Of a DNA stretch of 33,799 bases, positions 54 through 33,775 are shown in pieces (the first letter of the stretch is position 1; each line of letters begins with the position of its first letter). The stretch is from an uncultured Pseudomonadota bacterium. Lineage in GTDB: Bacteria; Desulfobacterota; Syntrophorhabdia; Syntrophorhabdales; Syntrophorhabdaceae. The position numbers and the translations under genes are program-made. The stretch spans positions 1 to 33,799 of the forward strand of contig CALMFJ010000049.1 in assembly GCA_937862865.1 (NCBI GenBank), read 5' to 3'. Under the pieces are notes generated by a model, which worked only from the letters and a program-made list of their open reading frames with translations, did no database searches and was not told the origin of the DNA.

Positions 54-180
54 CGGCTAACGGCTAACGGCAAGAATCCCGCGACTAAAATTTAAGGTAA
101 AAAAAACCGGAAGGAAGATTCCGGTTTTTTTGTTGGACTATTATCCGGATGATGCGTTTTTTTCCGTTAGCCGTTAGCCG
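54..180. repeat. Heptamer-repeat inverted element, locus A
   Basis: Left arm 54-70 and right arm 164-180 are exact 17-bp inverted copies of one another, each made of a 7-bp unit (ctaacgg on one arm, ccgttag on the other). They enclose the terminator hairpin at 98-131. The right arm starts four bases beyond the stop codon of the TPR-CHAT gene. The same heptamer recurs at locus C (22677-22787). Confidence 0.85.
98..131. terminator. Bidirectional rho-independent terminator
   Basis: The stem CCGGAA/TTCCGG (107-112 with 119-124) extends through flanking A/T pairs, has a 6-base loop, and is flanked by an A-run on the left and a T-run on the right. It can stop transcription from either side, which suits the convergent genes here. 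Confidence 0.85.
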
Positions 181-183
181 TCC

Positions 184-3100
184 TCATTCCCCGTACAGCA
201 CGAACGCCGACCAGAAGAACGGGTGGTTGAATCCGGTTTTTTTGTCTTTCAGCAGGGCGATCTTTGCCGTGCGGAGGGCATCGATCTTGGACAGGTTCTT
301 GTCTATCAATCCTTCGTAGAACAGGGTCATGAGGTCGCGGGTCGGTTCGTCGGCAACGGACCAGAGGCTCACGAGGGCCGCCGGGCTGCCGGCGTACATG
401 ACCGCACGCGTGAGGCCGGTCACCCCTTCGGCATTGCTTACGTCCCCGAGGCCTGTTTCGCACGCCGAGAGGACCACGAGCCGCGCGTTGAAGCGGGTGT
501 TCATGATCTCACCCAGGGTCAGGAAACCGTCTTCCCTGTCGGACGGTATCTGGCTCAAGGCGATCGCCTGGAAACCGGGCTGCAGGATCCCGTGCGTGGA
601 AAAGTGAATGTACGAATACCGGGCCATTTCAGGGGATTTGGCTTTTTCTTCACTGGCGTTGATCCTGAGATATTTCTGGTGCCTGGCGCCGGTTTTATCA
701 TACAGGGAGTCTATCGCCTCGATCTCCTCGGCCGTACCCTTAAGACGCGTGAGCGTACCGCCGGACCGCAGGTACAGGTCCTTGACGAACACGGCGCCCG
801 GCGACGGATCTCCTCCGGCCGGTTTCGCCTTCCGGTCGGAGATCCGTTCGCCTTCCTTGCCCTCACCGGTTGCCGACTCCTTCCCGGCGGCATCGGTTTC
901 CTTGAGGTATTCCTGAAAATCGTAAACGGGATCCCCGAAACCGACGAACCCGCCCTGCGTATTGTCGGTGCTGTGCTGACTCCTGAGCACACCGAGGACG
1001 GTACCCGACTGAATGTATGTCATGGGATATTTTTCGACCATGAATATCTTTTCGCCGTTCTTTTCCGTTACGAGAGCCTCAAACGGGAGATACGCCAGAA
1101 TCCCCTGGGGGGCAATTATAAGCGTCTTTCCTTCTATATGCTCCTCGACCGGCTTCACGAGCAGGTCATACAGGTCCCGCGCGAGGTTTTCACGAAGGCG
1201 CTCGCCCTGCTGGTATGCCCGGATGTTCGCGAGCATTTTCTGCACGCGGGCTGTAATGTCCTCATATTTCGCCGGAAGCGTGACGATATGAAACCCGCTT
1301 TTCCCGATCACGAGGCAGTAGACACGCTTCTTGGTCAGGAAATATTCAAGCAGGGCCTCATTGTCTTGCAGGACATTGTCCTGGAGGGCCTTTGCGGAGA
1401 TCGGCCGGGGGTACTCTACCGACGCGTAGAGCGGGTTTTTGTAACGTATCTCGCGCGTCAGGGCGTCGAGCTTTTCCTGCGCCGCGCTCAAATTATTCCT
1501 GAGCTCTTCGACAAGCTTCTTGTCCGGGTACTTTGCCTGGTTCTCTTCGGCGAGCCGCTTCTTGAGCATCAGGGCCTTGTTTTCCAGCTGATCGCGTTCC
1601 TTCTTCACTTCAGGGTCGATGCCTTTTTCGAGGTCAACTCTCGCCTCTGCGAGCTGGTCGAGGAACATCCTCGCCTTCATTGCCTCAATGTACTGGAAAG
1701 CCTTTTCGCCCTCTTCTTTTTCAAGCATATACAGTGCGGCGTCTTCGTAATGGCCGTACACTTTTTCCATGTAGCTTCTTTTAAGCTCCGAAAATGCCGC
1801 CCGGGCGCGTACCTGTTCAAATTTTGCAAGCCCCTCATCATACAGGCGTATCGTCTCCTTCACATCGTCCCTCCGGCCCGAGACAGAAGCTTTTTTCAAG
1901 AGGGTCAAGCCCTGAGACTCTGCATCCTGCATCTGGCCGTAGAGATCGAGGGCCAGGTTGTAGTTCTCGTCTGCTTTTTCCAGGTCGGACGCCGAAAAGA
2001 AGACATCGCCGATCCCCTGGTAGGCATGCCCCATGTCGACGAGCGAATTTGCGGCCGTGAGGAGGCGCAGGGCCTCCCGGAACATATCGAGGGCCCCCAC
2101 CCTGTTTCCCCGTGCGAGATATATTTCACCGAGCGTCTTGTAGATGTCGCCCTGCCCGATAGGTTCGCGCGTTTTCTTGTAAAGGGCCATCGCCGAATTG
2201 AACATCGCGAGGGCATGGTCGGTCTTTTTGAGCCGGAGGTATGTTTCGCCCATTGTCCGGTATGTGTTTGCCTGACCGAGGGGGGAATTGGCCTTCACAT
2301 ACAGTCGCAGTGCATTCTCATAATACTGCATGGCGCGCGGGTAATCACCCGCGTAAAAATAGATGTCCCCGAGCGAGCGCTGTACATTGCCCTGGCCAAG
2401 GGGCTCGTTTGCCTCAACATACAGAGGCAGGGCCTTATCGTACATCTCAAGGGCCCGCGAAAAATTCCGGTTATAATACCCGATATCACCAAGGCCCTTA
2501 TAGATGTCCGCCTGGCCGACAGGCTCCTTCAGCTTCCGGTACAGGGGAAGGGCGGTTTCGTACGCCTCGGATACCGCGCTCAGGTTGCCCCTGCGAAGCT
2601 GGAGCTGGCCGATGCGCCGCAACGTGTCCGCCTGCCCGAGAGGATAATCGGCAGATCTGAACAATTCGAGCGCCTTCTGGTATGTCTCGAGCGCTTCGTC
2701 ATTCTTGCCGGTAAAGTAGGCGATGTCCGCAAGCCCCTTGAGCGTGTACGCCTCCCCGACGACAACGCCCGTTTTCCTGTAAAGGGTAAGTGCATTCCCG
2801 TACTGCCCGGCGGCCTCGTCGCTTTCCCCGGTCTTGAGGTCTATATCCCCGAAAGCGCGGTACACGTCCGCCTCTCCGGCCTGGTACGCGGCGCTTTTAT
2901 ACCGGGCGAGCGCAAGCTCGAGTGCGCCGAGGGCTGTCTTGTAGTCCCGCAGCCTCATGGCGGCGTATGCCATGCTGAGATAGACGTGCCCTTCTTCAAC
3001 GGGGGAGCCCTCCCGCGAAATTATCCGCCGTGATGTCTCGAGAAGCTTTTGTGCTGTCTTGCCTTCGCCCATCTGACTGTAGACGTCGGCCGTCTTCCGG

Positions 3101-3657
3101 GTAATGACCCCCCTCAAAATGTTCGGCCCGCTCCGGGAGTATATCTCCGCGGCCCTGTTATACATGAGGAGCGCATTCGTCGGGTTGCCCTGGTAGAACG
3201 CGGCATCGCCGTTCCCTTCGTAGGCGCGGGCCATGAGAATATCGCTCTCCGACCGGCGGGCAAGCGGCATGGAATCATCGTAAAGCTTGAGGGCACGGTC
3301 CGGCCGGGCAGTGAAGAGGAAATAGCCGGCGGCGCGAAGCATCATTTCTGTCAGTGCCTTTTCGTCGTTTTTTTTCCGCGCGCCCTCGAGGACCATATCC
3401 ACCAGTGTATCATCGCGATTGCCAATGGCCCGGTCCAGCACCTTTTCCAAAACGGGGGCCTTTATTTTTTCTTCATTGTCCGCGAACACTGTCCAGAAGC
3501 TGCTGCCCTCTTTATGCGCGCTGAAAAGCGCATCGGATATGCGCATATCCTCGTCTGTGAGGGGCGCCGCTCCGGCGGAATGGACATGGCCGGCGACAAT
3601 GAGGAAGAAAAACAGGGCGACAGCGAAAAGGGAAGATACATGTCTGAATGTGATCAT
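184..3657 (-). CDS. Exported TPR-CHAT domain protein (putative caspase-like protease)
   Basis: A 1157-residue protein. An N-terminal signal peptide (about residues 1-28, hydrophobic core FAVALFFFLIVAG) predicts export to the periplasm or beyond. Residues about 95-640 are a long tetratricopeptide array with roughly 40-residue units, many sharing a P-(L/I)-GQA/GQG linker. A coiled coil follows at about 685-740, then a CHAT domain (PF12770, caspase-like clan CD fold) at about 750-1157. The expected catalytic dyad is present: His1022 in HFSTHG and Cys1066 in LSACETG, so the protease should be active. A Gly/Glu/Lys-rich insertion sits inside the CHAT domain at about 920-955. The start ATG follows a GAGGG Shine-Dalgarno. 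The gene is the last of a unit with two small secreted peptides upstream. CHAT enzymes cut specific protein partners that are often encoded nearby. The actual substrate here is unknown. Confidence 0.93.
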   Translation of the reverse strand: MITFRHVSSLFAVALFFFLIVAGHVHSAGAAPLTDEDMRISDALFSAHKEGSSFWTVFADNEEKIKAPVLEKVLDRAIGNRDDTLVDMVLEGARKKNDEKALTEMMLRAAGYFLFTARPDRALKLYDDSMPLARRSESDILMARAYEGNGDAAFYQGNPTNALLMYNRAAEIYSRSGPNILRGVITRKTADVYSQMGEGKTAQKLLETSRRIISREGSPVEEGHVYLSMAYAAMRLRDYKTALGALELALARYKSAAYQAGEADVYRAFGDIDLKTGESDEAAGQYGNALTLYRKTGVVVGEAYTLKGLADIAYFTGKNDEALETYQKALELFRSADYPLGQADTLRRIGQLQLRRGNLSAVSEAYETALPLYRKLKEPVGQADIYKGLGDIGYYNRNFSRALEMYDKALPLYVEANEPLGQGNVQRSLGDIYFYAGDYPRAMQYYENALRLYVKANSPLGQANTYRTMGETYLRLKKTDHALAMFNSAMALYKKTREPIGQGDIYKTLGEIYLARGNRVGALDMFREALRLLTAANSLVDMGHAYQGIGDVFFSASDLEKADENYNLALDLYGQMQDAESQGLTLLKKASVSGRRDDVKETIRLYDEGLAKFEQVRARAAFSELKRSYMEKVYGHYEDAALYMLEKEEGEKAFQYIEAMKARMFLDQLAEARVDLEKGIDPEVKKERDQLENKALMLKKRLAEENQAKYPDKKLVEELRNNLSAAQEKLDALTREIRYKNPLYASVEYPRPISAKALQDNVLQDNEALLEYFLTKKRVYCLVIGKSGFHIVTLPAKYEDITARVQKMLANIRAYQQGERLRENLARDLYDLLVKPVEEHIEGKTLIIAPQGILAYLPFEALVTEKNGEKIFMVEKYPMTYIQSGTVLGVLRSQHSTDNTQGGFVGFGDPVYDFQEYLKETDAAGKESATGEGKEGERISDRKAKPAGGDPSPGAVFVKDLYLRSGGTLTRLKGTAEEIEAIDSLYDKTGARHQKYLRINASEEKAKSPEMARYSYIHFSTHGILQPGFQAIALSQIPSDREDGFLTLGEIMNTRFNARLVVLSACETGLGDVSNAEGVTGLTRAVMYAGSPAALVSLWSVADEPTRDLMTLFYEGLIDKNLSKIDALRTAKIALLKDKKTGFNHPFFWSAFVLYGE

Positions 3658-3765
3658 ACTATCAGGGACCCTCTGTTTGATATATTCAGGAAGCCTTACA
3701 TCAACCGCGTGTCAGGCGCCGCGCGTCACTCGCTGCCGTCGGACAAGCACCGTTCCGGCCTGTCC

Positions 3766-3945
3766 TCAAGGCGGCACAGGAACACGGTCTTCAGGTATCG
3801 CGTTCGCGTGGTCCCCGTCTATGATAGTCGGCACGGCGGGCGGGTCAGGGGGGTCTCGTCCTTTATCTGCAAAACACACATTTACGGATGCCGTCAGCGA
3901 CAATGCCAGCAGCAGAACAAAAGAAAACCGTCTCACAATATTCAA
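3766..3945 (-). CDS. Small secreted proline-rich peptide 2
   Basis: A 59-codon gene starting at TTG 3945, preceded by ACAGG. It has a classic signal peptide: basic NIVRR, then hydrophobic FSFVLLLALSLTASV, then a cleavage site VCFA followed by DKGRDPPDP. The predicted mature part is about 33 residues, acidic and proline-rich, ending VPVPP. Its junction CFAD...DPPDP matches that of the peptide encoded just upstream, so the two look like paralogues. It starts 23 bases after that gene's stop and lies about 110 bases before the TPR-CHAT start. No family is recognised. A longer in-frame ORF begins at 4038, but it would overlap peptide 1 and bury the signal peptide, so the internal TTG is preferred. 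The non-ATG start is the main uncertainty. Confidence 0.6.
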   Translation of the reverse strand: MNIVRRFSFVLLLALSLTASVNVCFADKGRDPPDPPAVPTIIDGDHANAIPEDRVPVPP

Positions 3946-3968
3946 CGCCTGTAAGGTCTTCCGTCTGC

Positions 3969-4097
3969 CTAGCGGGGCGCAGCTACAGTCGTCCCGGCCG
4001 CTTGAGGCGGTTTCGGATCCGGAGGATCGGCGAAGCACATGCTTGACACGGAGAGCATGACAAGCGCTGAGATAACGATCTTTGTGGCTAACTTCAT
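3969..4097 (-). CDS. Small secreted proline-rich peptide 1
   Basis: A 42-codon gene below the usual ORF size cut-off. ATG 4097 has an AGGGGG Shine-Dalgarno six bases upstream and lies about 45 bases downstream of a strong sigma-70-type promoter. It begins MKLATK, then hydrophobic IVISALVMLSVSSM, then CFA followed by DPPDPKPPQ, and ends TTVAAPR. This is a clear signal peptide with a mature part of only about 19 residues. The CFA-D-PPDP junction is shared with the next gene (CFADKGRDPPDP). It is the first gene of the unit ending in the exported TPR-CHAT protein. No family or function is known to me. A substrate, ligand or pro-peptide of the CHAT protein is possible but only inferred from position. 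Confidence 0.65.
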   Translation of the reverse strand: MKLATKIVISALVMLSVSSMCFADPPDPKPPQAAGTTVAAPR

Positions 4098-4148
4098 TGC
4101 AACCCCCTGTTCAGGCTATTACTGCCTGTAAAACCATGCCTTACAGAA

Positions 4149-4177
4149 AGGATAGTAAAAAGGACCGGAATTGTCAA
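4149..4177 (-). promoter_or_regulatory. Promoter of the peptide/TPR-CHAT unit
   Basis: On the minus strand TTGACA (4172-4177) is followed by a 17-base spacer and TATCCT (4149-4154). The -35 is perfect and the -10 matches 4 of 6. It predicts a start near 4141 and a leader of about 45 bases before peptide 1. No other good promoter was seen before the TPR-CHAT gene, so all three genes are probably co-transcribed. Confidence 0.7.
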
Positions 4178-22649: not shown

Positions 22650-22676
22650 TTAATGAAAAAGCAAGATAAAAAGATC

Positions 22677-22787
22677 GGCGAACGGCTAACGGCTAACGGC
22701 TAACGGAAAAGACAAAAAACTGCGAGGACGAGGCAGGGCCAATTTTCTTGGTTTTTACCGTTCGCCGTTAGCCGTTCGCCGTTAGCC
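22677..22787. repeat. Heptamer-repeat inverted element, locus C
   Basis: The left arm (22677-22706) is gaacggctaacgg-type with unit ctaacgg repeated about three times. The right arm (22758-22787) is the inverted form ccgttag/ccgttcg, four units. They enclose about 50 bases. The right arm encodes the last residues and the stop codon of yqeC. The heptamer is the same as at locus A, more than 22 kb away. Confidence 0.85.
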
Positions 22788-23490
22788 GATAGTATATTCC
22801 ATATTTTGCCGCCGCGATCACCCCCTCGCCTATTCCCGTCTGCTCCATTATTTTTGCCATGAGTACGGCGGCCATGTGGCGGTGGGAGTAGGTGTCGTAT
22901 TTGTTGAGGACGACGGTCCGGTCCATTCCGGCCGTGCCTTTCAAGAGGGCGTCGTCCGAGAAGAGGCGCAGGAATATGTCGGGGTATACGAGCCGGGGGG
23001 TGAGGCCTGTGCGCTCGCGGAATAGCCGGCTGCGGAAGACGGCTTCCTCGAACGGCTTGAAAAGCCCGTCCATGCCGGCAACGATGAACACTTTTTCGGT
23101 ACAGGGCATGATGACGGGCTCGTAGTCCGCCGGGTACTTGAGGGGGCACTGCCTGGCGCCGTCAGCCTCGACGAGCACGACGTCATATGCATCGCCCAGG
23201 GATTTTACCTCATCGGGGGTAAGGCCGGTGAGCTTGCCGTGCTCCACCGTCTTTCCTATGCGGACAAACGCCGCGCCGCGCCCCTTCTTTTTCCAGTCCG
23301 CAAACGTGACGAACGGTTCCACGGCGAAGATCTTTGCCGTTGTGGCGATCGCCACGGTCTTTCGATGTTCCGTGCAGGACCGCGCCAGCTGTTCGGTCAG
23401 GGTTGTCTTTCCGCCGCCGCCCGTGAAGGACGCGAATTTAACTCCGTCGATCAGGCGGTACGGGTCATTCGTCCTTTGAATATGCAACAT
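22768..23490 (-). CDS. yqeC: YqeC family protein, selenium-dependent hydroxylase accessory
   Basis: 240 residues. The P-loop is G24GGGKTT in FTGGGGKTTLTEQLA, and LVEADGARQCPLK and VLNKYDT follow, as in the YqeC family linked to selenium-dependent molybdenum hydroxylases. The biochemical role is not established. The reading frame ends inside a heptamer array: the last residues RLTANG and the TAA are encoded by repeat units, so the natural C-terminus may have been replaced or trimmed. ATG 23490 overlaps the DUF2007 gene by 26 bases and has no good Shine-Dalgarno; a later start would still precede the P-loop. It ends the queD operon. Confidence 0.85.
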   Translation of the reverse strand: MLHIQRTNDPYRLIDGVKFASFTGGGGKTTLTEQLARSCTEHRKTVAIATTAKIFAVEPFVTFADWKKKGRGAAFVRIGKTVEHGKLTGLTPDEVKSLGDAYDVVLVEADGARQCPLKYPADYEPVIMPCTEKVFIVAGMDGLFKPFEEAVFRSRLFRERTGLTPRLVYPDIFLRLFSDDALLKGTAGMDRTVVLNKYDTYSHRHMAAVLMAKIMEQTGIGEGVIAAAKYGIYYRLTANG

Positions 23491-25395: not shown

Positions 25396-25510
25396 AGGCG
25401 ATAGGCAATAGGCGATAGGCTATAGTAAAATTATACCAAAAACCTAATACAAAATGGCGGGGCCCAACGTTAATGGTCAGGCTATGCCCATCGCCCATCG
25501 CCCATCGCCG
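25396..25510. repeat. Heptamer-repeat inverted element, locus D
   Basis: The left arm (25396-25424) has units ggcgata, ggcaata, ggcgata, ggctata. The right arm (25481-25510) read on the opposite strand has ggcgatg three times then ggcatag. About 55 bases lie between. It sits between the queD promoter and the rplC terminator. Confidence 0.8.
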
Positions 25511-33744: not shown

Positions 33745-33775
33745 GGCGTAAGGCGTAAGGCGTAAGGCGTAAGGC
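33745..33775. repeat. Heptamer array, locus F (one arm visible)
   Basis: Unit ggcgtaa repeated four times plus ggc, directly after the terminator. The expected inverted partner arm would lie beyond the window end. A REP-like half-site (GTCATCCCGG, 33790-33799) follows. Confidence 0.75.

Follow-up and report, generated by a model that had tools for sequence, protein, structure and literature searches.

What do two very small genes for secreted peptides do directly ahead of a gene for an exported caspase-like protein? The arrangement lies on the minus strand of a 33,799-nucleotide stretch of DNA (the window), which is the whole of contig G000:C49 in the genome (2.64 Mb in 172 contigs) of an uncultured bacterium of the Syntrophorhabdaceae. 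A promoter, the small open reading frames (ORFs) pep1 and pep2, a gene for a protein with tetratricopeptide repeats (TPR) and a CHAT domain, and a putative terminator follow one another in that order (Table 1). Comparison of orthologous loci shows computationally that one conserved promoter is shared by the genes for two related, conserved micro-peptides with signal peptides and for an exported TPR-CHAT protein, and that these genes stay together. In the explanation that we favor, with a probability of about 0.4, the peptides dock in the groove of the TPR domain and serve the predicted His/Cys enzyme as ligand, as substrate, or as both. As part of this explanation, and held just as tentatively, the three genes would form one operon for a peptide-protease module of the envelope.

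CHAT orthologs with 60–77% identity were found in nine further genomes of the genus, making ten loci with the window. Both small ORFs lie in the same order upstream of the CHAT gene in 10/10 of them, which is beyond chance, with gaps of 32–50 bp between pep1 and pep2 and of 89–138 bp between pep2 and the CHAT gene. The promoter, called clear in a preliminary description of the locus, was recovered by a consensus scan, and TTGACAATT as well as the TAT of the -10 element are kept at all ten loci. A G-rich ribosome-binding site also stands at the matching position of pep1 in every locus, while no conserved promoter was seen in the pep2–CHAT gap across the ten. Profiles of the two peptides were searched against 39 genomes of the family and a 395-genome sample of the phylum. 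Both profiles matched 10 of the 39 family genomes, each time beside this CHAT gene, and gave no convincing match in the remaining genomes of the phylum sample. Weak matches in G036, G060, G018, G034, G022, G029, G008:C4, G143, G212, G392, and G104 were rejected on inspection, being signal peptides or low-complexity stretches within longer unrelated proteins, frames antisense to other genes, or chance matches. Among 60 relatives, no DPPDPP-coding DNA elsewhere fell within a short signal-peptide ORF, and a search for any signal-peptide micro-ORF ahead of the remaining CHAT genes of the genus, family, and phylum returned nothing conserved.

Evidence from joint absence within the genus is weak. 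In G009 (94% complete), the CHAT gene, both peptides, and both neighbors are all missing, a weak sign of loss as a block. G001 was dropped as a second such case; its neighboring gene for a methyl-accepting chemotaxis protein (MCP) is truncated where the contig ends, on the side toward CHAT, and the assembly is 66% complete. A Fisher test of peptide against CHAT presence was set aside because the genomes are related.

The pep1 product consists of a predicted signal peptide, MKLATKIVISALVMLSVSSMCFA, and, after the predicted cleavage, the mature part DPPDPKPPQAAGTTVAAPR. C21, A23, and D24–P28 are invariant in 10/10 orthologs. The predicted signal peptide ending in CFA and the proline-rich mature part beginning with D agree with what had been described from the window alone. 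Mature pep1 is 16–20 residues long across orthologs and has a conserved C-terminus, TI.LPG or TV.APR. Judged by eye, the CFA cysteine does not mark a lipoprotein, and this reading was rejected, as no small residue precedes the Cys.

The pep2 product reads MRRFSFVLLLALSLTASVNVCFA up to the predicted cleavage and continues with DKGRDPPDPPAVP and a variable tail. Because its orthologs begin at an aligned GTG (7/10) or ATG (3/10) codon, pep2 of the window more likely has 56 residues from GTG 3936 than 59 from TTG 3945; of the sizes first given, 42 codons for pep1 therefore stands and 59 codons for pep2 does not. A23, KG, D, and PPDPP are kept, and the core DKGRDPPDPPxxP, in which the residue directly before DPPDPP is always R or K, ends about 13 residues past the signal peptide. 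In most of the genus (L004–L010), pep2 has a C-terminus of the SDRGD type (SDRGDL, SDRGDS, SDRGDP, SDRSDF), which is absent in the window, in its closest relative G004, and in G008. Peptide lengths range from 39 to 80 residues across loci. The two had been called paralogous; hhalign relates their profiles with a probability of 94% and an E value of 1.2e-7, in an alignment most of whose columns are signal peptide.

Both small ORFs are under purifying selection and clearly not neutral. The ratio of non-synonymous to synonymous change (pN/pS), pooled over the ten loci, was 0.298 for pep1 and 0.509 for pep2, next to 0.286 for the CHAT gene; the near-neutral values named in the preliminary description as a sign against the peptides were thus not found. 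By segment, the ratio was 0.25 in the signal peptide and 0.35 in the mature part of pep1, and 0.50 in the signal peptide, 0.10 in the core, and 0.76 in the tail of pep2. Variable columns of pep1 were distributed 20/10/36 of 39 over the three codon positions, and frame +1 of the small ORFs was interrupted by stops in every locus tested.

The large protein is a CHAT-family member by its match to Pfam CHAT (PF12770; 1.1e-63, 215.8 bits against a curated cut-off of 24), and proteolysis is its predicted activity. The match and the conservation of H1022 and C1066 in 10/10 genus orthologs agree with the exported TPR-CHAT protein originally reported, in which about 13–14 forty-residue TPR repeats precede the CHAT domain. 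All ten orthologs have a hydrophobic N-terminal signal sequence as judged by eye. Because all three products have signal sequences, we infer that all are exported and that the module has its site of action outside the cytoplasm. CHAT proteins of the exported kind occur repeatedly in the genomes examined; no ligand or substrate is known to us for any of them.

CHAT orthologs that are 36–44% identical occur in two genomes of a sister genus, G021 (L042, 7076–10570) and G029 (L043, 8152–11592), and fall outside the genus clade in the tree. They stand beside the PhzF-family neighbor, directly in G021 and one gene away in G029, and no trace of the peptides was found beside either. Their dyad is broken, by H1022R and C1066D in G021 and by H1022Q with the Cys kept in G029, which makes them probable pseudo-enzymes as judged from sequence. 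Among direct orthologs, the catalytic dyad and the peptides therefore go together: 10/10 loci have both, and the two sister-genus loci have neither an intact dyad nor peptides. Two histories would explain this: the peptides originated along the stem of the genus, or the sister genus lost them jointly with catalysis. Each fits a functional tie between peptides and catalysis.

The TPR domain offers a candidate receptor. The AlphaFold2 model has a regular superhelix of 40-residue repeats, with high confidence over residues ~67–618, so that the CHAT protein contains, as modeled, a superhelical TPR domain of the peptide-receptor type. Its best structural neighbors include NprR (5dbk; Z 28.4, root-mean-square deviation (rmsd) 5.0, 350 aligned) and Rap proteins of phage and Bacillus (Z 26.7–28.1; Rap 8rtc at Z 28.1, rmsd 5.0, 349 aligned). 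MalT (Z 27.2) and LGN (Z ~26) are also among them; the fold is thus not specific to the RNPP receptors. LGN binds partner peptides. In TPR superhelices the A helices line the groove (PMC3601957), and in repeats 7–12 the A helices are 94% conserved within the genus versus 82% for the B helices. The stretch of residues 461–520 ranks high in conservation within the genus and high in divergence from the sister genus (windowed residual z of about -2.6 to -3.0).

Functional coupling of the peptides to the CHAT protein is probable, because the two show strict co-occurrence and gene order, a shared conserved promoter, purifying selection, no peptides elsewhere, and none beside the dyad-broken sister-genus orthologs. 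We propose that Sec exports pep1, pep2, and the TPR-CHAT protein, and that signal peptidase I would cut after Ala23, leaving mature pep1 to begin DPPDPP (DPPDPK in the window) and mature pep2 to begin DKGRDPPDPP. The rigid proline core would then dock in the concave groove of the TPR solenoid at repeats 7–12 (~339–555), where docking would present the peptide tail to the His1022/Cys1066 site for cleavage and/or switch the CHAT enzyme onto another envelope target. This proposal is preferred because a constrained proline core and a freely evolving tail look like a docking element and a presented segment. The working logic would be that of a Rap-Phr-type TPR/peptide pair with a caspase-like output, outside the cytoplasm. 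In pep2, the basic residue that always precedes DPPDPP (KGR/KGK) might in addition be a processing site that yields an N-terminus like that of mature pep1. It is more doubtful that the locus is an envelope peptide-signaling cassette, in which the TPR groove of the exported caspase-like enzyme would sense the DPPDPP pair and the pair would control or feed proteolysis.

Several points weigh against docking and presentation. The CHAT part of the AlphaFold2 model is poor, with confidence (pLDDT) mostly 25–45 from residue 894 to ~1100, and a reading of the substrate pocket and active site from it was dropped for that reason. The likeness of the TPR fold to NprR and Rap shows no shared function, and the TPR divergence of the sister genus could reflect general relaxation of a pseudo-enzyme. 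The correlation of dyad and peptides rests on one sister genus and possibly on about one independent event. TPR-CHAT loci without peptides also exist, namely CHAT paralogs within the genus, the orthologs of the sister genus, and the outgroup relatives L094 (G029) and L141 (G385), whose dyad is intact. Such loci had been named beforehand as evidence against the peptides; they were found, and taken with the non-neutral selection the outcome of the two checks is mixed. Since dyad-intact relatives manage without them, the peptides are a genus-level elaboration and no general requirement of TPR-CHAT proteins; the initial proposal that the peptides are substrates, activators, or products of the CHAT protein is partly supported, for a functional partnership rather than for any one of these roles. 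Finally, because Craspase orthologs differ in where they cut (A|S, L|D, M|K; PMC11106740), no site would be predictable here from sequence.

The system may work like Craspase or like an RNPP pair, but it is neither. Craspase, of type III-E CRISPR, joins the TPR-CHAT protein Csx29 to its substrate Csx30 and shares with the window a caspase-like TPR-CHAT protein, a His/Cys dyad, and a co-encoded dedicated partner or substrate, a role we infer for the peptides; recognition of its partner relies on position and not on a cleavage motif (PMC11106740). Craspase is a cytoplasmic system with RNA guidance from gRAMP/Cas7-11, whereas the window encodes three signal-peptide products with partners of 39–80 residues. 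Neither gRAMP/Cas7-11, Csx30, nor any other CRISPR gene was found among the scanned neighbors (PhzF, MCP, NrpR, glutamate-synthase-like, carboxyltransferase, LamB/YcsF, MFS, and glyoxalase genes), and in PADLOC the CHAT protein matches a generic TPR model only. The system is not Craspase, because no CRISPR partner was seen and the protein is exported. Rap-Phr, NprR-NprX, and the other RNPP pairs of Firmicutes likewise combine a small exported peptide with a TPR protein, of closely similar fold (Z 26–28), and their peptides bind the concave TPR groove in extended form (PMC3601957). RNPP receptors are cytoplasmic, require re-import of the peptide, and have a phosphatase or DNA-binding output (helix-turn-helix or three-helix bundle). 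The window protein is not an RNPP receptor, because it is itself exported and has a caspase-like CHAT output. CHAT proteases are also encoded beside bacterial gasdermins, a comparable pairing of a CHAT-family protease with a neighboring partner gene; the partners in the window are instead short exported proline-rich peptides, and no gasdermin gene was recognized at the locus. In agreement with the preliminary description, no account of an exported CHAT enzyme with co-encoded micro-peptides was found in the open-access literature, with subscription papers and preprints outside the scope of the search.

The peptides could instead inhibit the exported CHAT enzyme, being made first, binding it tightly, and keeping it silent until removed, as securin does with separase. 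The peptide genes are first in the operon and their products probably made in excess, proline-rich segments resist proteolysis, and dyad-less orthologs would need no inhibitor and have no peptides. Foldseek whole-chain matches of the model include separase complexes, but the match is weak (TM-score ~0.3, rmsd ~20 Å), and L094 and L141 keep an intact dyad without any peptide. We consider inhibition unlikely.

Rather unlikely, too, is a reading of the peptides as small secreted proteins in their own right, either cell-cell signals or components of the envelope, that share no more than an operon with the CHAT gene. Their direct contact with CHAT is a prediction, and neither the variable pep2 tail nor the conserved pep1 C-terminus points to CHAT by itself. 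However, the peptides never occur away from this CHAT gene in the genomes searched, and the flanking genes (PhzF family, MCP, NrpR regulator, and carboxyltransferase subunits) offer no other partner.

A role as regulatory leader peptides, in which ribosome stalling at DPPDPP near the signal sequence controls downstream translation as SecM does for SecA, is quite improbable. Like the SecM/ApdA-type arrest peptides, pep1 and pep2 are short signal-sequence ORFs with proline pairs upstream of a larger gene, and the stall-prone pairs occupy a nearly constant codon position; whether ribosomes stall at proline stretches is governed by EF-P and upstream context (PMC4176338). In G008 (L011), the gap from pep2 to CHAT contains a long, nearly perfect hairpin, AAAGACAGAGGCGGA...TCCGCCTTTGTCTTT, which is in keeping with a leader and could lower read-through into CHAT. 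The criteria by which arrest leaders are sought, however, ask for a conserved C-terminal motif more than 30 residues past the localization signal (PMC10987492), whereas DPPDPP follows the predicted signal cleavage directly or by up to 4 residues. The gene downstream of SecM/ApdA-type peptides encodes a localization factor (sec/yidC), whereas here it is the CHAT gene; alignments of the pep2–CHAT gap between loci are poor and reveal no obvious common structure to the eye, and pep1 is constrained at its C-terminus too. That the small ORFs are not genes at all, conceivable for chance ORFs of such small size and proline-rich composition, is refuted by ten-genome conservation, a bias toward synonymous change, variability at third codon positions, start codons and ribosome-binding sites that are conserved, and the stops in frame +1.

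The terminator hairpin, read directly from the sequence, is absent from the list of the promoter/terminator consensus scan. Short tandem arrays of a heptamer (CGGCTAA and variants), often in inverted pairs ~50–120 bp apart, occur in the window, also around this terminator; CGGCTAACGGCTAACGG has 66 matches in the genome (≤1 mismatch, overlaps counted) and the reversed control 0. The MCP-type gene, convergent with CHAT (L041, 6337–7947, + strand; the same neighbor in other genus loci), has the unusual order HAMP, MCP signaling domain, C-terminal Cache sensor.

Table 1. Coordinates of the features of the peptide–CHAT locus and of the heptamer arrays in the window.
Feature	Position	Strand	Basis and details
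Sigma-70-type promoter TTGACA-17-TATCCT	4149..4177	-	Promoter consensus scan
pep1 ribosome-binding site AGGGGG	4103..4108	-	Read from sequence
pep1, 42-residue exported peptide	3969..4097	-	Predicted signal peptide residues 1–23 (CFA|D); 10/10 orthologs; pN/pS 0.30
pep2, 56-residue exported peptide	3766..3936	-	Predicted mature DKGRDPPDPPAVP..., variable tail; 10/10 orthologs; core pN/pS 0.10, tail 0.76
Exported TPR-CHAT protein, 1157 residues	184..3657	-	N-terminal signal sequence; TPR ~67–618; CHAT 824–1157; H1022, C1066
Probable intrinsic terminator CCGGAA-TCTTCC-TTCCGG then TTTTTTTT	99..124	-	3' of CHAT gene; read directly from sequence
Heptamer arrays	54–70 + 164–180; 22676–22706 + 22758–22792; 25396–25425 + 25486–25509; 33745–33775

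Two tiny conserved genes tied to an exported CHAT enzyme thus provide candidate ligands or substrates of 16–60 residues, and micro-genes overlooked by annotation can point to the partners of orphan proteases. From its sequence, the module looks like a peptide-controlled protease outside the cytoplasm; if this is true, bacterial signaling would gain a caspase-like form of proteolysis that peptides control and that takes place beyond the cytoplasm.

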